The notes: a model not told the origin generated them from the letters alone. DNA of 26,779 nucleotides from a virus (IMGVR_UViG_3300010885_008855:1-26779); one strand, 5' to 3'; positions 3,106 to 24,748 are shown, numbered from the stretch's first letter. Numbers and translations are program-made.

Positions 3106-3548
3106 TATGCTACTCCTACTTCTTTCATTACCTTGGCGGTTTTCTTGGTTATCTTTTCTGCTGCTGGCATAGCGCCAGCATCAAAAGCTGTACCTAGTTT
3201 GTCGCTTGCTTCCTTTGCTTCAGCGATTGCCTTCATGGTTGTGCCAGCAGGTTGAATACCCTGTGATCTAGCATCACGATAAGCGCTTAATTCTGCATCC
3301 CATTTTTTCTGAGACATTGTGCGTCTGCCATTGGCATCGCCGGTATTTAATTCTAGTGTGAGAACCTTGCAGCCAAAGCAACCATCAATATAAGTATCAT
3401 GCTGATTATGATCCGATGGTGTCTCATCATAAACTGGTGCTTTGTCAAACGTTTCCCCACATTCAGTGCAACCATATTGAGTTGGGATAGAATCGTATTT
3501 ATCGTTTACGCCCCATTGGGTTACCTTGCTTATGTGCTTGTGAGTCAT
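3105..3548 (-). CDS. Zinc-ribbon protein with basic C-terminal tail
   Basis: A 147-residue protein. Two Cys pairs, CTEC (about residues 27-30) and CFGC (about 57-60), with intervening HNQHD, form a zinc ribbon or HNH-like fold; no complete HNH active site is visible. Residues 75-147 are helical and end in a Lys/Ala tail (EKITKKTAKVMKEV), like the next two basic micro-proteins. The start lies 50 bases inside the 3' end of the glycosyltransferase gene, with AGGAAAG eight bases before it. Such zinc-ribbon proteins are frequent in actinobacteriophage structural operons. Function unknown; nucleic-acid contact is a guess. Confidence 0.75.
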   Translation of the reverse strand: MTHKHISKVTQWGVNDKYDSIPTQYGCTECGETFDKAPVYDETPSDHNQHDTYIDGCFGCKVLTLELNTGDANGRRTMSQKKWDAELSAYRDARSQGIQPAGTTMKAIAEAKEASDKLGTAFDAGAMPAAEKITKKTAKVMKEVGVA

Positions 3549-4587
3549 TCTTCACTTTCCTAAAGAAGTCTAAGTTGCGCTGGATGCGCTCTGTTTCAGG
3601 ACCATTGCCTGCGACGGCAGCAACTGCAAAAGTTATCGCTTCATCAATTCGCCTGATATTGTAAGAGGCGATACTGGCAAGGTCGTATGCTTTCCAATCC
3701 CATATAGCGGATTCGTAGCAGTAGTGTGTTGAACGAGTACGTTCCAAAACGTTAATAGAAGCATCTAAACACCTTTGCCAATTAGCTTTGCGATAGGCAT
3801 CTATTGCCACACCGTACCAAGGCTCGCCTTGGATGGGAAGAATCTGTACACCTCTGTCATACCAAGCAGTTGAATCCTGCTTTAGGTTATGAGCAGCCTC
3901 ACCTGCCCATCGGCAGACAGCGGCTTGCTCAACATCCCAACCACCGCACTCAAGTTGTTTCTCCGCTGCGCGGATAACATCTTCCCAGCGTTGGTAGAAA
4001 TAATATTCTCTGCACATGTAAGTCCACATGCGAGCATCTGTTGGATTTTCTTTTACAGCCAGTTCTAACAGATCGTTGTATAAACCTCTTGATTTGCTAT
4101 CATCTGGTATATGCTTGATGACAGCATTGCGTATGTCACAGTCTGTGGTTTCACCTTGACCGTACCAAAGTTGAACCTCATGGCAAGGATATTTCCATCG
4201 CCATCCAAAGCGGGAATGTAATCTATCTCGTTCCCACTTCTGACCAGTATCCATACTGATCCACCCAAGTTTGGCGCCTTGCTTCCAACCCTTGCGAACT
4301 TTGTCAAAGAACTTAGGTTCAGGAACTTCATCCATATCTAAGATCACGCAAACTTCTGCATCGGCAGGAACTAAAGCAAGTGCCGCATTGCGGGCATCAT
4401 CAAATCTAAACGGTTGAAAGTTTCCTTGATGTACTGAAACACCAAGTTCACGCAACCTATCTTGTGAACCATCTGTAGATCCGGTGTCTAAAACTACCCT
4501 GTAGTCTGCACCCTTTGTAGCTTCTGCCCATCGGTCAATATGCCTAATCTCATTTTTGCAAATGCAGTAGACTGCTATCTTGGGCAT
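3499..4587 (-). CDS. GT-A family 2-type glycosyltransferase with TPR-like C-terminus
   Basis: A 362-residue protein. Residues 1-90 are a classical GT2 nucleotide-sugar-binding domain: start MPKIAVYCICKNE, then LDTGSTDGS (33-41), FDDARNAAL (62-70) and the metal-binding DMD at 84-86 (ILDMDEVPEP). Residues about 165-340 are a chain of short helices with Trp/Tyr/Ala spacing (WTYMCREYYFYQRWED, WYGVAIDAYRKANWQRC) that looks like TPR repeats. Expected activity is transfer of a sugar from an NDP-sugar to a protein or glycan; the acceptor is unknown. It sits beside fibre genes, which suggests a virion protein. It has no Shine-Dalgarno; a TGGTATAAT box ends five bases before ATG, so it is probably leaderless. 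Confidence 0.88.
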   Translation of the reverse strand: MPKIAVYCICKNEIRHIDRWAEATKGADYRVVLDTGSTDGSQDRLRELGVSVHQGNFQPFRFDDARNAALALVPADAEVCVILDMDEVPEPKFFDKVRKGWKQGAKLGWISMDTGQKWERDRLHSRFGWRWKYPCHEVQLWYGQGETTDCDIRNAVIKHIPDDSKSRGLYNDLLELAVKENPTDARMWTYMCREYYFYQRWEDVIRAAEKQLECGGWDVEQAAVCRWAGEAAHNLKQDSTAWYDRGVQILPIQGEPWYGVAIDAYRKANWQRCLDASINVLERTRSTHYCYESAIWDWKAYDLASIASYNIRRIDEAITFAVAAVAGNGPETERIQRNLDFFRKVKNDSQAHKQGNPMGRKR

Positions 4588-8391: not shown

Positions 8392-8412
8392 GATTCTCCT
8401 TGTTAGTGGGCA

Positions 8413-8443
8413 AAGCCCCCTTAGTATTTACCTAAGAGGGCTT
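8413..8443 (-). terminator. Hairpin downstream of the major capsid gene (partial terminator or processing site)
   Basis: Arms 8413-8424 and 8432-8443 pair over 12 positions with a seven-base loop. On the plus strand one pair is C-A, but on minus-strand RNA it becomes G-U, so the hairpin is better formed in the late transcript. Only a short TTT follows, then GCCCAC, so it is probably a leaky terminator or RNA-stabilising structure that lets capsid mRNA exceed tail mRNA (inference). Confidence 0.5.
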
Positions 8444-8463
8444 AGCCTTTACTTAACTAATAG

Positions 8464-18000: not shown

Positions 18001-19834
18001 TCCTGAGCACGCCTGCTGATAATGTAGGCTGACCAGAAGATGAAAGACCTGCAAGTAATGATTGCAGTGCGGGACGTCCGCCAGGTGCCATGCCCTGTTG
18101 ACCAGGTGCTACACCTTGTAGACGACCAGAAGCATTTAATCCTGGTGGTAATTGTTCCTGACCAGGTTGAGTAGGCTCCCCAGTAGGAACCTGACCTGGG
18201 GCTTGTGCCTCGCCAGCGGCTGCAACTTCTGGGGAAACTTCTGGTGCAGGTGCAGGAGCAAAAGCTGCCGCAACAACTGCTTCAATTTGTTCGCCCTTTT
18301 GGCGACCATCAATGATGGATGCCATAGCAGCCAATACCTTAGAAGGATCTTGTCCTTGCTCTACCATTGCTGGTAGTGCTTGTGCATAACCGGCGACTGC
18401 TTGCATAAGAGCATCGCGTAATTGTTCTACTTCTACTTTTTCTTCTTCCATGGTGACGTTCATTTCCCATGGCATCTGACGACGTAGGAAGTCACGAGAG
18501 ATTAACTTATCTCCACGTGCTTGTAATCCGAATACCAAGGCACGGTTTGGATCTAGTCCAGCCATCATGCCATAGGTAACATCACACCAGTAATCGCCTT
18601 GGATGGCATCTTTTGGTGTATAAGTGATTTCATAAGGAGCACCAGCATTAACGCCACGTACTTCCTTTGTAACATCACCGAATAATTTTTCATCCATCAT
18701 AAAACACATGCGCATTACATGACGGAATGTTTCAGCAAATACTGCTTGTGCTGTTTTGATCTGTGTATCAAATCCACCCATAAGGGCTTCAACGCCACGA
18801 CCTGTAACAATAGAACCTGATTGCTGACCAAGACGACCTTGTGGGTAACGTGAACCAACACGTAGTTCTTGATCTAGGCTTTGTGATTCTTGGAAGATTC
18901 CATTAGGAATATCAAGTGAAACACGGCGGATCTTTTCAGGGTTGGCTGAGCGGATAGTTGCATCAGGACCAATCTCAAGTACATTGACGTCAGAAGGTAA
19001 AGCAAACGGAGCCTGTACAGATTTCTGTGCTGCTTCTAGTTGCAATGTAGCAAAACGTGAGCGAGCAACTTGTACCCACATGATGTCATCAAACTGACCA
19101 CGTTGGTGCTCATCAGAGTCAACGCCAGGGCGAGTAGCAATAACAACTGGTAGTTCACCGAGCATGTTCTTAGCACGCTCAAGGATAAGATTCTTGCGCT
19201 CTGGGATAAAAAGAACTAGCTCGTTCTTATCTTGATAGCGGAATAGTTCTAGGCGACGCTCAGAGTTGCGGTTCTCATAAGGCCCACGGATCTCAGGCTC
19301 TAGCTCAGGGAAATCATTACATAGTTCACGTACACTCTTTTGGTAGCGACGTGTGTAGGAAATCAATTTGTTGAAACGGTCAAACTCAGGGTATGAGCCA
19401 ATGGGGTTATCAATGCGGATCATTGGGCGATTATTCTCATAATCAGGTTCAATGATAAAGGCGACCATTCCAAAGGTGATGTAGCGATCTGCGCCTGTGT
19501 ACATCTGTGTTTGAAGATTACAAGAGTCGCGGTAACCTGAAGCAATCATGGTGCGCTTATCAGCACGCTTACGAGCACGATCTGATACAGCATCTGTAGT
19601 ATCGCAGTTGAAGGCAGGTAGTGGAGCAATAACTTCTGCTACGTCACGGGCAGCAATGTCAATGAAGTTGGAGACCATTGGCTTTGGAAATTCGTCTGTA
19701 AATGCGCCAGGGAATACCTGTTGGATATTACCTTGACGGATAGACATAAGATCAGCCCAGCGGGCATCACGTTGACTATGGGCATCGCGTAACTTGCGTA
19801 CCTTGGTACCAAGTTCGTCAATATCTATTGCCAT
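17987..19834 (-). CDS. Portal protein
   Basis: A 615-residue protein from MAIDIDELGTKVRKL. Portal-type pattern: helical N-terminus (HSQRDARWADLMSIRQGN), FVDI-like helix (VSNFIDIAARDVAEVIAPLP), then DRARKRADKRTMIASGYRD, PIGSYPEFDRFNKLISYTRR and FVL-type beta blocks such as RNLILERAKNMLGELPVVIATRP; a long Gln/Glu-rich C-terminal stretch ends PGQQGMAPGGRPAL. It would form the dodecameric ring at the packaging vertex. Position right after the terminase supports this. An in-frame ATG 15 bases upstream (MGEPS) lacks a ribosome site, whereas GGGGGAA lies seven bases before 19834. The gene overlaps the terminase by 17 bases. I infer portal from size, order and motif style rather than a diagnostic residue. 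Confidence 0.85.
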   Translation of the reverse strand: MAIDIDELGTKVRKLRDAHSQRDARWADLMSIRQGNIQQVFPGAFTDEFPKPMVSNFIDIAARDVAEVIAPLPAFNCDTTDAVSDRARKRADKRTMIASGYRDSCNLQTQMYTGADRYITFGMVAFIIEPDYENNRPMIRIDNPIGSYPEFDRFNKLISYTRRYQKSVRELCNDFPELEPEIRGPYENRNSERRLELFRYQDKNELVLFIPERKNLILERAKNMLGELPVVIATRPGVDSDEHQRGQFDDIMWVQVARSRFATLQLEAAQKSVQAPFALPSDVNVLEIGPDATIRSANPEKIRRVSLDIPNGIFQESQSLDQELRVGSRYPQGRLGQQSGSIVTGRGVEALMGGFDTQIKTAQAVFAETFRHVMRMCFMMDEKLFGDVTKEVRGVNAGAPYEITYTPKDAIQGDYWCDVTYGMMAGLDPNRALVFGLQARGDKLISRDFLRRQMPWEMNVTMEEEKVEVEQLRDALMQAVAGYAQALPAMVEQGQDPSKVLAAMASIIDGRQKGEQIEAVVAAAFAPAPAPEVSPEVAAAGEAQAPGQVPTGEPTQPGQEQLPPGLNASGRLQGVAPGQQGMAPGGRPALQSLLAGLSSSGQPTLSAGVLRRTPV

Positions 19835-21737
19835 AGAAGGTTCCCCCATTAGATGCTAATTTTTCTTGAAGTCTTGCGTATTCTTCCAAATTGACTACCT
19901 TGCGTGAAGCAACTTGATGTCTTGTTGCAAACGGGTTTTTAACAAAGGAGCCGCCATAGGCTCCTGCTTGATTGATGTAATCCCGCATTTGCGTCTCTGC
20001 AAACCAGAGAGCCATTGGACCATCTTGCTTATTTTTTGTTCCTGCTGACCAAGTAATCAATTGCTCAATCAGTGACTTGATATGTTCATTGTCGGCACGA
20101 GGCAACTCCAAGAGGTTTGAACCTTTAATGTATTTGCCTTGGTTGTCCATCGTGCCGAATAGTGGGGCCATAGAGGCAACACCGAATTCAAGATCCATCT
20201 TGTTGCCACCGGTATAATGCTGCACAAGGCGGATGCCTCGCGTAGCAAGAAACTTATTGATCTGTTCGTCTTGGGTTAAGAAGAGCTGAAAGGCGTTCTT
20301 CTCAATGACCCATACCTTTGGGTTGTACTTTTCAGTCCAACTAAAGATTAGGTCGCGAATCATTTGTGGTGTAGGCGCTGGCATCCTAGATGCCTCTAGC
20401 AAGTAGCGCTTGCCCGTAATTCTATCTCCGGACATAATCACGGAGAAGGTATCACCTGACATGGCTGGGTCCATAGACGCAACGATGTACTGACTAGAAA
20501 GATTCTCAGGGTGACCTGGGGCACCTGGGATAATAGGACCGATAGATCTCATGCCACTGACAGCACCGCGTACACACTCAGGACTAAAGATTGCTGAGGA
20601 CTCAACGTCCTGCTGTTGGTAAACCATTGCCCAAGTCTTTGGGTCAATCAGACCACGACGGCGGCGTAAGTGCTCACCTGACCAGCGTGGGTATAAGCCA
20701 TTCTCATCTGGTGGTGTATCGTCAGCATCCCATGGGCGATCTGACTTAGGCCACAAGGTAACCCAATCCTTTGGATTATCTTTAAACTCAAGAACCGCTG
20801 GCATAGCCAAGTAAGTCCAAGGGGATCTGTTGTCAGGGTAACGTTCTGGGTTACGCATCTCGCGATAGAGATCCATAGGATCTACGCGGGTACCTACAAC
20901 TAAGATCTTTCCTGTGGGACCAACACGGGTAAGTACTTCTTGCTGAATCCAACGGATCTGCTTTTCGTACTCACCAGCGTTGGCTAGTGTCACGCAGTCG
21001 TCAAGGATGATTAGATCTGCACGTGCTCCATAGATCTGACCACCGATACCGAGTGCCTGAACGGTAGGGTCTTTTTCACCTGACTCGCGCTCAAGGTAGA
21101 TGGTGTCCGCTGACCACTTATCTGAGGTAGCTTTGAATCCTTCTACAGGAGCGTAGCGTCTTTGAAGTTCTGCCCATTGGGGTGAGGTAAGTCTTTGTTT
21201 AATAGCGTAAAGGAATTCTTTTGCCATTGCCTGAGTTTTGGAGACTAACTTGATTCTCACATTTGGGTCGATTACAATCCTATAGACCACATAGTCAATA
21301 GAGACCGTCATAGACTTAGCGTGTTCAGGCGGCATGTTCACCAGCACGTAATTCTTAAAGCCTTTTTCATAGGTCATGTTGCCATGGAGCCAGGCAGGCT
21401 CACCTTCTTCTAGAAGGCTTGTGATGTTTCTTTGGTGGTCAAAGGTCTGGGAGTTGAGATACTTCAGCCGGAAGTCCTCAAAAGATATATTCGCGTCATC
21501 ATCGCTGACTACGCCCTTTCGCTTCTGAATGACGCGAGAGAGATCAATAGCTTCTTTAAACTGTGGATCGCTAGAGCGATAGTACTCATAAGATTTTACT
21601 GACTTGCCGACTGCGCGGCAAGCATCCTCTACCGTGACCCCATCTTGAATGAGGGCGACCAAACGCTTTTTGGCATCTGGTGCGGACAAGGTGGCCTCTG
21701 GGGCCAGCTTGTAAGAGTTGGTAGATGGTTTAGCCAT
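19818..21737 (-). CDS. Terminase large subunit with N-terminal HTH domain
   Basis: A 639-residue packaging motor from MAKPSTNSYKLAPEA. Residues 26-70 form a helix-turn-helix (VTVEDACRAVGKSVKSYEYY, then FKEAIDLSRVIQ) like those of small terminase subunits. Residues 136-144 (PPEHAKSMT) are a Walker A variant lacking the canonical GxGKT form; LIILDD (242-247) is Walker B. The RNase H-like nuclease follows: SMDPAMSGD with Asp about 423, and VIEKNAF about 475. ATPase drives DNA into the procapsid; the nuclease cuts headful or site ends. Start 21737 is chosen because AAAGGAAAG precedes it; an in-frame ATG 63 bases upstream lacks one. It is the first gene of the leftward module. No separate small subunit gene is visible. 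Confidence 0.93.
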   Translation of the reverse strand: MAKPSTNSYKLAPEATLSAPDAKKRLVALIQDGVTVEDACRAVGKSVKSYEYYRSSDPQFKEAIDLSRVIQKRKGVVSDDDANISFEDFRLKYLNSQTFDHQRNITSLLEEGEPAWLHGNMTYEKGFKNYVLVNMPPEHAKSMTVSIDYVVYRIVIDPNVRIKLVSKTQAMAKEFLYAIKQRLTSPQWAELQRRYAPVEGFKATSDKWSADTIYLERESGEKDPTVQALGIGGQIYGARADLIILDDCVTLANAGEYEKQIRWIQQEVLTRVGPTGKILVVGTRVDPMDLYREMRNPERYPDNRSPWTYLAMPAVLEFKDNPKDWVTLWPKSDRPWDADDTPPDENGLYPRWSGEHLRRRRGLIDPKTWAMVYQQQDVESSAIFSPECVRGAVSGMRSIGPIIPGAPGHPENLSSQYIVASMDPAMSGDTFSVIMSGDRITGKRYLLEASRMPAPTPQMIRDLIFSWTEKYNPKVWVIEKNAFQLFLTQDEQINKFLATRGIRLVQHYTGGNKMDLEFGVASMAPLFGTMDNQGKYIKGSNLLELPRADNEHIKSLIEQLITWSAGTKNKQDGPMALWFAETQMRDYINQAGAYGGSFVKNPFATRHQVASRKVVNLEEYARLQEKLASNGGTFYGNRY

Positions 21738-21784
21738 TGGGGTAATCTTTCCTTTGGATAAGATAGTTCTATCCCACTGCGAAG

Positions 21785-21871
21785 CATTGCCTATGGGCAA
21801 TGTTGTGGGTAAGATTGGGGGCGCTTTATGCGCCCTACCCTATGGGGTAAAAGCAGGGCCACAAGCCCTGC
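21785..21871. repeat. Three closely spaced GC-rich hairpins upstream of terminase
   Basis: Hairpin 1: CATTGCC 21785-21791 with GGCAATG 21796-21802. Hairpin 2: GGGCGC 21819-21824 with GCGCCC 21830-21835. Hairpin 3: GCAGGGC 21853-21859 with GCCCTGC 21865-21871, loop CACAA. All stems are perfect. They lie in the probable 5' leader of the terminase transcript, so they could be regulatory leader structures, a terminase recognition (pac or cos-like) site, or an ncRNA. No direct evidence separates these. Confidence 0.55.
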
Positions 21872-22225: not shown

Positions 22226-22413
22226 CCTATACCGGGGCCTTAATTGGCCATTGATCCCCTTTTAAGATCGGTTTACGTTAGTGTGCGGTAGATAGTCAAC
22301 TATAGATTCAACCCCTAATCGGGCCATGCCCCGGGCCCCTAGCCATGCCAGGATCGGACTAGCTCCCCGGATCCCCTGGCGTAAAGTGTGACCCAATTCA
22401 CGGCGCGTCGCTA

Positions 22414-22443
22414 TTGACAAGCGTGATTCCCCGCGTGTATCTT
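22414..22443 (+). promoter_or_regulatory. Early promoter, TTGACA-N18-TATCTT
   Basis: A perfect -35 TTGACA (22414-22419) and -10 TATCTT (22438-22443) are 18 bases apart. The start codon of the first early gene is 44 bases downstream, giving a leader of roughly 37 bases that carries a small hairpin (ATCGG/CCGAT) and GGAAGGA. GCGTG is directly repeated within the spacer (22421-22425, 22433-22437). It is the first of three similar leader units. Confidence 0.65.
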
Positions 22444-22486
22444 TCACTTATCGGTAACAAGGCCGATATATTGGAAGGATAAAAGA

Positions 22487-22642
22487 ATGAGCAGAATGTC
22501 AATAAATACAGAACTTGATGGATACGATTATGATAATCAAGCATGGTACAAGAATGGTGTCTATGTCCGCTGCGGCCATCCCGATACCATGAATTGCGAA
22601 TGTTATGGCAAGATCCATGAAGGCCAGAAGGTGAGCGCATAA
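22487..22642 (+). CDS. 51-aa Cys/His micro-protein, first early gene
   Basis: MSRMSINTELDGYDYDNQAW, then YVRCGHPDTMNCECYG and IHEGQKVSA. Residues 29-39 form a CxH...CxC cluster (RCGH, NCECY) that could bind zinc. The CxCYGxxHEG ending is a pattern I recall from small actinobacteriophage proteins. GGAAGGA lies seven bases before ATG and a good promoter lies upstream, so this is very likely expressed early. One base separates it from the next gene. Function unknown; host-modulating roles are common for such genes. Confidence 0.7.
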   Translation: MSRMSINTELDGYDYDNQAWYKNGVYVRCGHPDTMNCECYGKIHEGQKVSA

Positions 22643-22643
22643 C

Positions 22644-22754
22644 ATGAGAATTTCAACTAAAGCTAAGTGCGTAGAATGTTCCCGTGTCTTTGATCTATTG
22701 AATGATCTAGACGCGGCAGAATGGGCCTATGGCCATGATTGCGAGGATATTTAA
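22644..22754 (+). CDS. 36-aa zinc-knuckle micro-protein
   Basis: MRISTKAKCVECSRVFDLLN, then DAAEWAYGHDCEDI. Cys9, Cys12, His31 and Cys33 give a CxxC...HxC zinc site. The pattern CxxC, F.LL, EW.YGHDCE is one I recall from many short actinobacteriophage proteins and from zinc ribbons attached to phage DNA enzymes. The upstream gene ends with AGAAGGTGAGCG, which offers AAGGTGAG as ribosome site. Its stop is one base from the next ATG. Possible nucleic-acid or protein adaptor. Confidence 0.7.
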   Translation: MRISTKAKCVECSRVFDLLNDLDAAEWAYGHDCEDI

Positions 22755-22755
22755 C

Positions 22756-23127
22756 ATGGCCCGCACTAAGGAGCAAAAGTCCGCTTTCATTCAAGAATTA
22801 AAGGCCGCCGCCGCGGCCCTAGAAGATCAAGGCCTAGAGATCCCGTTCCGCTTAGCGGGCCGATTCTCGCCTAATAATTGTCTGATGATCCTAAGCCAGG
22901 ACCCGGCGGCCACTAATTGCGCCGGTTTCCATGAGTGGCGCAAGGCCGGCAGAATCGTACGCAAGGGAAGCAAGGGAAGCGCTATCCTGGTACCGCTAGG
23001 CATATATACCGATGACGCCGGCAGTGAGCGCATGACGTTCACGTGGCGTTATGTCTTTGACGTACGCGATACTGATCCAATAGCTGAGGATAGTCCGACA
23101 CGCTTACGCGATCTCGCTAACGCTTAA
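22756..23127 (+). CDS. Stand-alone ArdC-like N-terminal (ssDNA-binding) domain protein
   Basis: A 123-residue protein from MARTKEQKSAF. Residues 36-80 match the ArdC N-terminal pattern: RFSPNNCLMILSQDP, ATNCAGFHEWRKAG, then RIVRKGSKGSAILVP; residues 97-107 (WRYVFDVRDTD) match its characteristic YVFDV-TD strand. In plasmid ArdC this ssDNA-binding domain precedes a metallopeptidase and protects incoming DNA from restriction; here the peptidase is absent and the protein ends just after the domain. An anti-restriction or ssDNA-handling role early in infection is likely (family inference). An in-frame ATG 27 bases upstream overlaps the preceding gene and lacks a ribosome site. Confidence 0.8.
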   Translation: MARTKEQKSAFIQELKAAAAALEDQGLEIPFRLAGRFSPNNCLMILSQDPAATNCAGFHEWRKAGRIVRKGSKGSAILVPLGIYTDDAGSERMTFTWRYVFDVRDTDPIAEDSPTRLRDLANA

Positions 23128-23129
23128 CT

Positions 23130-23208
23130 ATTGACTTATGCGCTAGGGCCGATTACCCTAGCGTATAGGCCGGTAGATAACCGGATAAGATCATGGAAGG
23201 ATCTAAGA
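23130..23208 (+). promoter_or_regulatory. Leader unit 2: TTGACT-N17-TACCCT with 12-bp hairpin and GGAAGGA
   Basis: ATTGACT begins three bases after the ArdC-like stop. TTGACT (23131-23136) and TACCCT (23154-23159) are 17 bases apart. Arms 23137-23148 and 23156-23167 form a 12-pair stem with one G-U, loop seven. A second small hairpin (CCGGT/ACCGG) precedes GGAAGGA, which lies seven bases before the next ATG. Promoter, attenuator or both; shared layout with units at 22413 and 24214. Confidence 0.6.
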
Positions 23209-23382
23209 ATGGCTAAGTCAATTAAGGTGCACCTAATTATGTCGGATCTTGCCGGCGTAGAATGGGTAAACGTAGAGACTACAGAAGCTAAGGCTAAGGC
23301 CCTAGTTAAGCAGTATCAGAAAGATAATCAAGCACTAGGCACGCCGGCACTACGCGCCACGTTTAAGCCGGTGGCGGCATGA
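23209..23382 (+). CDS. 57-aa basic unknown protein
   Basis: MAKSIKVHLIMSDLAGVEWV, then TTEAKAKALVKQYQKDNQ and ATFKPVAA. The likely fold is beta, then helix, then beta. GGAAGGA sits seven bases before this ATG; the longer reading frame beginning further upstream would run through leader unit 2 and has no ribosome site, so it is rejected. The stop overlaps the next start as ATGA. No Cys or membrane segment. The beta-helix-beta outline resembles the small paralogous proteins near the right edge, though sequence similarity is weak. Confidence 0.7.
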   Translation: MAKSIKVHLIMSDLAGVEWVNVETTEAKAKALVKQYQKDNQALGTPALRATFKPVAA

Positions 23383-23894
23383 GTGCGTTCATGGTAAACA
23401 CTGACACGCTAGACCTATTGGCCAGCGTGGCCACGCTATACGACACGCAACACACTACCTACGTATATCTAGAATCGGATCAAGCCGGGCCTACGCAAGG
23501 CCTAAACCTAGTAACCGGCACCTATGGCGAGCGTTACGTGGAGATACGCGGCGGGGATGAGGATAGTATCGTGCGCGAGCTTTGGCACGCTAATAAGGTA
23601 AGCCTAGAAGCGCGTTACGATGACCCTAACGGCCTTATCCATGATGACCTAGTCCAAGATACATGGCGGCCCGTCTATGACGTGCCACTGCCGGCGATCC
23701 TGGGAGCTATCGCGTGTTATGAGTACCAAGCATGCGAGAGTAATACCTGGCGCTATTCATTCGCTAAAGCCTATTGTGAAGCTATTAGGCGCAAGGTTTG
23801 CGGCCTAATATCCGATGGGCATTGGGAGTTTACCCTACCGGCTAACTATGTAAGGCCCGTGTCTCTTATGTCTATGATGAGGGACCCACGATGA
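23379..23894 (+). CDS. Actinobacterial/phage-type unknown protein, 171 aa
   Basis: A 171-residue soluble protein (MSAFMVNTDTLDLLASVATL; central VRELWHANKVSLEARYDDP; C-terminal LGAIACYEYQACESNTWRYS, then AKAYCEAIRRKV). The start MSAF-V-TLD and the CYEYQxCE-W motif recall a family of unnamed proteins common on actinobacterial plasmids and phages; no function is known to me. Four-base overlaps with both neighbours (ATGA, ATGAG) make it part of a coupled unit. No signal peptide. It is the strongest host-lineage marker in the early block, by recollection rather than search. Confidence 0.75.
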   Translation: MSAFMVNTDTLDLLASVATLYDTQHTTYVYLESDQAGPTQGLNLVTGTYGERYVEIRGGDEDSIVRELWHANKVSLEARYDDPNGLIHDDLVQDTWRPVYDVPLPAILGAIACYEYQACESNTWRYSFAKAYCEAIRRKVCGLISDGHWEFTLPANYVRPVSLMSMMRDPR

Positions 23895-24073
23895 GAAGCC
23901 GCGCCTATTACCGGACCCGGACACTAGTACGCGCCCTATTCTGGCTCACCCTAACCCTGCTCATAGTGGCAGGGATAGCGGGGCTTCTCTACCTTGTAGA
24001 TCATGTAAATTACATGGGCGCGGGTAAATGGTGCTTTCATAGCTTGATCGTATGCGATTTTGGGGGTAAGTAA
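23891..24073 (+). CDS. Small single-pass membrane protein, 60 aa
   Basis: MRSRAYYRTRTLVRALFW with five Arg, then a hydrophobic segment of about 22 residues (residues about 15-36, FWLTLTLLIVAGIAGLLYLV) and a short tail with two Cys (WCFHSLIVCDFGGK). The positive-inside rule places the Arg-rich N-terminus in the cytoplasm. Superinfection exclusion, membrane remodelling or a small holin are possible; no lysis enzyme lies next to it, so a holin is not favoured. Coupled upstream by ATGA and downstream by TAATG. Confidence 0.7.
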   Translation: MRSRAYYRTRTLVRALFWLTLTLLIVAGIAGLLYLVDHVNYMGAGKWCFHSLIVCDFGGK

Positions 24074-24210
24074 TGGATAAATGCCGATTTTGCGGGCTTC
24101 GTGGGCTTGTCCTGTCTACGATTAACGCGGATTTTGTCTGCGAACATTGTGGAGAGTGGCAGGATTTAATTCTTAACTCTACTTATTATCCGACAGGATA
24201 CAGGGGCTAG
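24073..24210 (+). CDS. 45-aa zinc-ribbon micro-protein
   Basis: MDKCRFCGLRGLVLSTINAD, then FVCEHCGEWQDLIL and YYPTGYRG. Cys4, Cys7, Cys23 and Cys26 give a complete CxxC...CxxC zinc ribbon. The ATG overlaps the TAA of the membrane protein gene (TAATG), with GGGGGTAAG before it. It is the last gene of the second leader unit, and its stop lies three bases before the ATTGACT of the third. Function unknown. Confidence 0.72.
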   Translation: MDKCRFCGLRGLVLSTINADFVCEHCGEWQDLILNSTYYPTGYRG

Positions 24211-24213
24211 GTT

Positions 24214-24295
24214 ATTGACTAGGGGAGAGGGTAGCTGTACCCTCTCTCTTAGCCTCTTACCTAAAGAGGAAAACTATCGGAAGGGAAACCGACAA
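24214..24295 (+). promoter_or_regulatory. Leader unit 3: TTGACT-N17-TACCCT with 11-bp hairpin and GGAAGG
   Basis: TTGACT (24215-24220) and TACCCT (24238-24243) are 17 bases apart, as in unit 2. Arms 24223-24233 and 24238-24248 form an 11-pair stem (one G-U) with loop GCTG. A second hairpin, CCTCTT/AAGAGG, precedes GGAAGG, which lies eleven bases before ATG. It introduces the third early cistron group and coincides with a sharp change in base composition. Confidence 0.6.
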
Positions 24296-24748
24296 ATGAA
24301 CGGCAAAGCAATCAAAACCGCTTTGAGCGGTATCACGCAGGAAACAATGACCAATGGCACAATGGGCGAATTATGGGACAACTTGCCCGACTTTATCCGT
24401 GGCACTGATTGGGTGGGTGAGATTGTAGATATGGCTTACACCGCCTCCGATTGGCTAACGGATGATAAAGAGTACACGGAGGACAAGGTTCAAGACCTAT
24501 CCAATGACCTAGCAAATGTTGAAGTACAGCATTACTACGCGACAATTAACAAGCGCGTTCAATCTCTTAGCCTTTGGGCATATCCTGAATTAGATGATGA
24601 AGTGGCAGAACTGTTCAATGGTGATGTTAACCCTTCACTAACGGACTTGAACTCTCACTACCTTTACTGCGCTATGCGCGGACTTGCTTATCAAGTCCTT
24701 ACCTATGCTTACAACAAGGCAGAGGAACTAGAGGAGGCGAACGCATAA
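24296..24748 (+). CDS. Acidic unknown protein, 150 aa
   Basis: A 150-residue helical, acidic protein from MNGKAIKTALSGITQETM; Trp-rich first third (ELWDNLPDFIRGTDWVGEIV), then TASDWLTDDKEYTEDKVQDL and a C-terminal helix (LAYQVLTYAYNKAEELEEAN). GGAAGGG lies about ten bases before this ATG; the longer upstream reading frame crosses leader unit 3 and is rejected. The stop overlaps the next ATG (TAATG). No family recognised. Acidic host-directed inhibitors or DNA mimics are common in early phage blocks, but that is only a possibility here. Confidence 0.7.
   Translation: MNGKAIKTALSGITQETMTNGTMGELWDNLPDFIRGTDWVGEIVDMAYTASDWLTDDKEYTEDKVQDLSNDLANVEVQHYYATINKRVQSLSLWAYPELDDEVAELFNGDVNPSLTDLNSHYLYCAMRGLAYQVLTYAYNKAEELEEANA

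Follow-up and report, generated by a model that had tools for sequence, protein, structure and literature searches.

A 26.8 kb virus record in IMG/VR (IMGVR_UViG_3300010885_008855:1-26779), referred to here as the window at its full length of 26,779 nucleotides, carried three similar leaders in front of its early genes. By comparison of sequences, leaders 2 and 3 probably mark transcript boundaries between the early cistrons of an actinobacteriophage, by either termination or processing. In both leaders, a putative promoter was nested in the stem of an RNA hairpin. The anatomy, the covariation, the pairing as sense-strand RNA, the link to stop codons, the head leader without large stem and the large stems without promoter were established by computation. 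As operon punctuation, the finding is ordinary in kind; it is unusual in form, with a promoter inside a covarying RNA stem. In most bacterial operons, start and stop signals lie side by side. In these leaders, they are apparently superimposed base for base, both constraints being solved via compensated and G-U pairs, and one 40-base stretch plausibly ends one message and begins the next.

Coordinates of the leaders and their neighbouring genes are given in Table 1. Each leader comprised a -35 and a -10 box, a small hairpin (hp2) and the ribosome site. Leaders 2 and 3 also held a large stem (hp1), whose first base was the C of the -35 motif TTGAC. It took in the -35 end and bases 3-6 of the -10 box in leader 2, and the -35 end and the entire -10 box in leader 3. 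The gap between hp1 and hp2 was zero in both leaders and the arm sequences of hp1 differed between them. In leader 1, hp2 began 6 nt past the -10 box, close to the predicted transcript start. The leaders had been pointed out in an original prediction made from the sequence by a model. Its positions, boxes and spacings were all correct on re-reading, and its leader length of 74-82 bases agreed with 74, 79 and 82 bases from ATTGAC to ATG in leaders 1, 2 and 3. The absence of a matching large hairpin from leader 1 was borne out. The large stems, which had been given as 11-12 bp, reached 14 and 15 bp once G-U pairs were counted.

Table 1. Features of the three early leaders and adjacent genes in the window.
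Feature	Position	Strand	Details
Leader 1 promoter, type A	22414-22443	+	TTGACA-N18-TATCTT; head of early operon; no large stem
Leader 1 -35 box	22414-22419	+	TTGACA
Leader 1 -10 box	22438-22443	+	TATCTT
Leader 1 small hairpin (hp2)	22449-22468	+	TATCGG/CCGATA
Leader 1 ribosome site	22473-22478	+	GGAAGG; ATG at 22487
Unit 1 last gene	22756-23127	+	123 aa; ArdC N-terminal-like (Pfam ArdcN, E 7e-05)
Unit 1 last gene, stop codon	23125-23127		7 nt ahead of leader 2 large stem
Leader 2 promoter	23131-23159	+	TTGACT-N17-TACCCT; boxes 23131-23136 and 23154-23159; comparative support
Leader 2 large stem (hp1)	23135-23169	+	14 bp including G-U; loop 7; arms 23135-23148/23156-23169
Leader 2 small hairpin (hp2)	23170-23184	+	CCGGT/ACCGG; abuts hp1
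Leader 2 mini-hairpin	23188-23204	+	AGATC/GATCT; ribosome-site GGAAG in loop
Leader 2 ribosome site	23195-23200	+	GGAAGG; ATG at 23209
Unit 2 first gene	23209-23382	+	57 aa; no assigned function
Unit 2 last gene	24073-24210	+	45 aa; weak zinc-ribbon similarity
Unit 2 last gene, stop codon	24208-24210		8 nt ahead of leader 3 large stem
Leader 3 promoter	24215-24243	+	TTGACT-N17-TACCCT; boxes 24215-24220 and 24238-24243; comparative support
Leader 3 large stem (hp1)	24219-24252	+	15 bp including G-U; loop 4; arms 24219-24233/24238-24252
Leader 3 small hairpin (hp2)	24253-24269	+	CCTCTT/AAGAGG; abuts hp1
Leader 3 ribosome site	24279-24284	+	GGAAGG; ATG at 24296

The promoter pattern alone was found five times in the window with 3.9 matches expected, which is not above chance. 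A generic sigma-70 scan gave eight matches with 9.6 expected. On RNA folding, leaders 2 and 3 reached significant z values of -5.0 and -5.2, respectively, and 0/200 shuffles equalled either. Leader 1 showed a z value of -3.1 and small hairpins only. No family in Rfam matched the element. Since the folds were significant and the leaders were conserved in relatives, the observation is beyond chance, for which the promoter pattern alone would be insufficient. The original observation was confirmed, and its author had under-called it.

Relatives were gathered via the terminase, resulting in 80 contigs, and more were added via early proteins. The key scan of IMG/VR used TTGACT-N17-TAYCNT followed by TGGAAGG and did not require a hairpin. 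Among its distinct matches, 26 leaders had a stem score of 12-14, each stem beginning at the C of TTGAC, and all others scored 7 or less. A broader promoter-anchored set (n = 90) was bimodal, with 54 leaders at a stem score of at most 8, 36 at 11 or higher and an empty gap between them. The large stems of relatives were about 13-19 bp long and mostly unbroken. Leaders of type A retained boxes similar to TTGACA-N17/18-TATCTT, most of them preceded by a divergent gene, and the arms of their small hairpins differed among relatives (e.g., TATCAG/CTGATA and TATCGG/CCGATA).

Covariation was calculated for 15 diverged leaders of identical geometry, aligned without gaps over a stem of 15 pairs. Paired cells accounted for 97.3% compared with 74.8% for shuffled partners. 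Two-sided compensatory changes numbered 48, with 17.5 expected. The covariation score of 0.63 fell to 0.24 or less on sliding by 1-3 columns. Four pairs were invariant, among them those holding C5 of the -35 box and A2 and T6 of the -10 box. Positions 3-5 of the -10 box varied, changing together with their spacer partners, and the TTGAC/TAnnnT core was retained. In an orthologous set of nine leaders from one phage group, the stem was 100% paired, with swaps of C-G to G-C and between U-G, A-U and C-G. The covariation in relatives that the original prediction had proposed as a check on the stems was clearly present. Because the invariant pairs hold promoter bases while other pairs covary, the alignments indicate that promoter and stem are two constraints met simultaneously. 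The window leaders match the sigma-A type, defined as TTGAC(A) and TAnnnT at a spacing of 16-18 nt. On comparative evidence, the earlier assignment to sigma-70-type promoters (TTGAC, 17-nt spacing, TAnnnT as -10) is supported, as is the superposition of stem and promoter.

The type of pairing distinguished RNA from DNA. All contigs of the family were searched for a strong stem followed by a ribosome site, with G-T or A-C scored as half a pair. Scoring of G-T yielded 73 strong stems (34 dereplicated), scoring of A-C yielded two and Watson-Crick pairs only yielded none. In a second run, 35/35 dereplicated stems held at least one G-U pair. A repeat in double-stranded DNA would show departures of the A-C type as frequently as G-T, so the observed bias points to a stem in the RNA of the coding strand. 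These counts indicate that hp1 works as RNA transcribed from upstream and not as a DNA operator. The G-U pairs would allow an RNA hairpin while weakening the DNA hairpin.

The stems were located at gene ends. Stop codons were counted if they closed open frames of at least 30 codons. With this definition, 35/35 dereplicated stems started within a range of -11 to +24 nt around a stop codon, with a median of 7. In promoter-bearing stems, TTGAC was situated -4 to +8 nt from the stop codon. The same boxes without large stem were mostly farther from stops and commonly beside a divergent gene, with some exceptions from small frames. A promoter was present in the stem in 10/21 dereplicated modules and none was recognisable in 11/21. 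Contig L229 had three consecutive hp1 stems without promoter. Since promoterless stems and stemless promoters of type A both occurred, stem and promoter are separable, each from the other. The original prediction had interpreted the three leaders as a coordinated early regulon. Given that leader 1 differs in type and about half of the stems in relatives are promoterless, the comparison indicates that what the leaders have in common is not shared promoter control.

For leaders 2 and 3, the following course of events is proposed. A polymerase arriving from the upstream gene would transcribe hp1, a hairpin of 13-17 bp beginning a few bases past the stop codon. Folded in the upstream RNA, hp1 would end or cut the upstream message and protect its 3' end. 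This action would most likely be a partial termination without U-tract, as reported for phiC31, or else processing by an endonuclease. Inside the stem, the same DNA holds a presumably active host sigma-A-type promoter, TTGAC-N17-TAnnnT, from which transcription is predicted to start 6-8 nt past the -10 box, within the 3' arm of hp1. The new message would lack hp1, start within a few bases of hp2 and continue into the GGAAGG ribosome site, and hp2 may guard or stabilise its 5' end. Because of the start in the 3' arm, a message born at the promoter could not fold hp1; only RNA of the upstream gene could. Leader 1 heads its operon and has no nearby upstream gene in the same direction; it would need no hp1, and none was present.

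Several points weigh against a boundary function. A U-tract was not found after hp1, with a mean of 2.2 T in 9 nt, and a terminator scan flagged neither the stem of leader 2 nor that of leader 3. Termination by hairpins without U-tract is disputed for actinobacteria, and mycobacterial data conflict (PMC5335608), with one computational survey in favour of clusters of hairpins close to stop codons (PMC8355165). Genes behind a promoterless hp1 need read-through, so termination would have to be partial, or processing would be the real activity. Positions 3-5 of the -10 box fit TATAAT poorly and the support for the promoter is of a comparative kind. In one group, several relatives had modules with TTGACT and a large stem but AGCTGG at the place of the -10 box, which this interpretation does not predict. 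The covariation set was picked among stem-bearing leaders, a bias that is small given the bimodal histogram.

Alternatively, hp1 may be an RNase III-like processing site. Cutting of read-through RNA would separate the cistrons, and the nested promoter would provide a second route to nearly the same 5' end. This explanation agrees with the length of the stems (13-19 bp, mostly without interruption), with the many that are promoterless and lie between genes needing read-through, and with hp2 directly next to hp1, where a 5' guard is expected. Unless stacked on hp2, however, the stems fall short of the length expected of a bacterial RNase III substrate, and this explanation is considered rather unlikely.

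An operator was named in the original prediction. In this case, a phage regulator would bind the inverted repeat as DNA and act on the nested promoter as repressor or activator, a role that has been proposed for the extended start-associated sequences (ESAS) of cluster K mycobacteriophages. The symmetry centre lies between the -35 and -10 boxes, and the geometry is that of ESAS. However, arms were not common to the leaders of one genome and varied freely between leaders, changes came as compensated pairs, departures were G-U rather than A-C, and hp1 was also found without promoter. The DNA operator was rejected on the variation of the arms and the G-U bias; it is strongly disfavoured and very improbable. 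The second suggestion of the original prediction, an attenuator, held in part. RNA read in from upstream can fold the stem, but the leader's own transcript cannot, with its predicted start in the 3' arm of hp1. A switch operating within the leader RNA itself, with hp1, hp2 and the ribosome-site helix as alternative folds, would draw on three neighbouring helices, one with GGAAG in its loop. No conserved competing pairing was seen, and such a switch is equally hard to credit. Least of all can credence be given to an extruded-DNA hairpin promoter read by a phage RNA polymerase, as for the early promoters of phage N4: the stem does lie at a promoter and has variable arms, and N4 stems likewise tolerate variable bases (PMC4496689), but type A leaders carry the same boxes without stem, G-T pairs destabilise hairpins in DNA and would leave A-C mismatches in the template strand, a DNA hairpin lying between the -35 and -10 boxes shut off a host promoter in E. 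coli, an effect lifted by inhibition of gyrase (PMC4496689), and a single-subunit RNA polymerase was not found in 24 relatives by a search whose control also gave no match.

A wider generalisation of the boundary element is conceivable, though we consider it unlikely. The three helices hp1, hp2 and ribosome-site helix might form an RNA punctuation cassette common to a large family of freshwater actinophages, in which hp1 is cut or terminated and the new message begins at hp2. Obligatory G-U pairs would then permit promoter and RNA hairpin to coexist without an extrudable, promoter-silencing palindrome in the DNA. ESAS and start-associated sequences (SAS) would be a DNA-bound relative of this layout.

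Partial parallels exist in known phages. A study from 1995, judged by its title, reportedly describes terminators without poly-U tails in the early region of phiC31 (cited in PMC5335608). Measurement of the phiC31 early region revealed several gaps with hairpins of 14-19 bp, containing 2-4 G-U pairs and located 3-26 nt past the stop codon. Downstream of some hairpins lay a repeated sequence of the TTGCCGAC type, which we take to be the early promoter. Common to both are the actinophage early region, the strong hairpin soon after the stop and the missing U-tract. In phiC31, the presumed early promoter lies downstream of the hairpin, whereas the present leaders carry a sigma-A-type promoter within the stem, which is followed directly by a second, small hairpin. 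By analogy, both elements may follow the same logic, with the promoter moved into the stem in the present case. A canonical intrinsic (Rho-independent) terminator shares the GC-rich hairpin directly past the stop and differs by the U-tract that is missing here.

SAS and ESAS of cluster K mycobacteriophages (PMC3203893, PMC11373665) and of cluster EF Microbacterium phages (PMC7302621) also resemble the leaders. They hold a SigA-like TTGACA-N17/18 in an inverted repeat with the -10 box in the right arm. Further similarities are a ribosome-site element close to the start codon that is conserved to an unusual degree, and the position at non-structural genes. ESAS are 17-bp inverted repeats with one arm sequence per subcluster, whereas the arms here vary freely, covary and use G-U pairs. 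In 11 ESAS repeats of TM4 and Adephagia, 14 mismatches were A-C and 2 were G-T. The authors of the ESAS study argue against RNA hairpins or RNA pairing of the arms (PMC3203893). The SAS consists of the 13-bp GGGATAGGAGCCC at the start codon, which was not encountered in the present leaders; they had GGAAGG in varied flanks. The early promoters of N4 share the coincidence of a promoter with a stem of variable bases (PMC4496689). They comprise a short DNA hairpin of the template strand, with a loop of 3 bases and a stem that measures 7 bp in the solved complex, and are used by the virion RNA polymerase. The present elements differ by stems of 13-17 bp (14-15 bp with loops of 4-7 in the window), RNA-type G-U pairs, sigma-A-type boxes and a stem that is dispensable at type A promoters.

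A third helix was suggested at the ribosome site. GGAAGG was often located in the loop of a short helix, the arms of which differed between leaders (AGATC/GATCT, TATC/GATA, TACC/GGTA and GCC/GGC). Of 85 GGAAGG leaders, 37 reached a helix score of at least 9, compared with 16.2 after reshuffling of the flanks. Leaders with GAAAGG showed no enrichment in the same test. The signal weakened with strict dereplication (at the strictest level, p = 0.14 for the mean). A column-by-column test reached z values up to 2.5 only, in a noisy set, and a flexible-loop test with strict filter was weak (p = 0.08 on the mean). The comparison is suggestive of a ribosome-site helix in relatives. The SAS sequences GGGATAGGAGCCC and GGGAAAGGACCCC are predicted to likewise place the Shine-Dalgarno core in a GGG/CCC loop.

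Some variants were observed among the relatives. With or without promoter, hp1 often had CUAU opposite GUGG or GUAG at its base, with U-G as the second and fourth pairs, which may be a recognition motif of a protein or nuclease. The modules with AGCTGG at the place of the -10 box were L144:1306 (-), L162:6513, L185:7002, L216:1321, L233:909, L234:5073 and L236:9280 (-). In L067 12922-12990 (-) and L073 4319-4390 (-), the large stem carried TTGACA in its loop and 3' arm, and the small hairpin held a -10-like TAGCCT.

The window encoded structural genes in leftward direction and short early genes in rightward direction from about 22.4 kb. WhiB, a marker for actinobacteria and their phages, was present in 20/24 related contigs. 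Terminase and capsid proteins showed 43-60% identity to Streptomyces phages such as Immanuel3 and were slightly nearer to the records OX376640/1. These records belong to phages E7 and F5, as their strain names agree with PMC10202952, and E7 and F5 are the first phage isolates on 'Ca. Planktophila' (PMC10202952). Based on WhiB and the relatedness to E7/F5 and Streptomyces phages, the host is most likely a freshwater actinobacterium. A beta proteobacterium, the bin label of the only terminase match, was rejected as host; given WhiB in the relatives, the label was taken as misbinning. The matching contig, L237 (CAIVXR010000185.1), had a terminase with 87% identity and probably is a misbinned actinophage contig. 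No close relative of the window at the DNA level was found among isolated phages. In the distantly related Immanuel3, the same scan detected no such early module.

Since the cultivated relatives E7 and F5 exist (PMC10202952), the element is testable. Its covariation provides a handle on the role of ESAS/SAS-type leaders in actinophages and on whether hairpins without U-tract end actinobacterial transcripts. The element also offers a way to spot early gene boundaries in uncultured actinophages.

Further features were observed in the window. The last gene of the first early unit encodes a short protein resembling the N-terminal domain of ArdC, an anti-restriction protein (Table 1). The large terminase subunit was encoded at 19818-21800 (-). 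Its N-terminal residues 31-84 match small terminase families, which suggests a fusion of small and large subunit. A glycosyltransferase family 2-like protein was encoded amid the structural genes at 3499-4587 (-). A hairpin followed the major capsid gene at 8400-8450 (-), and the equivalent site of E7/F5 (OX376640.1 18771) held a stem with TTGACT-N17-TAGCCT.

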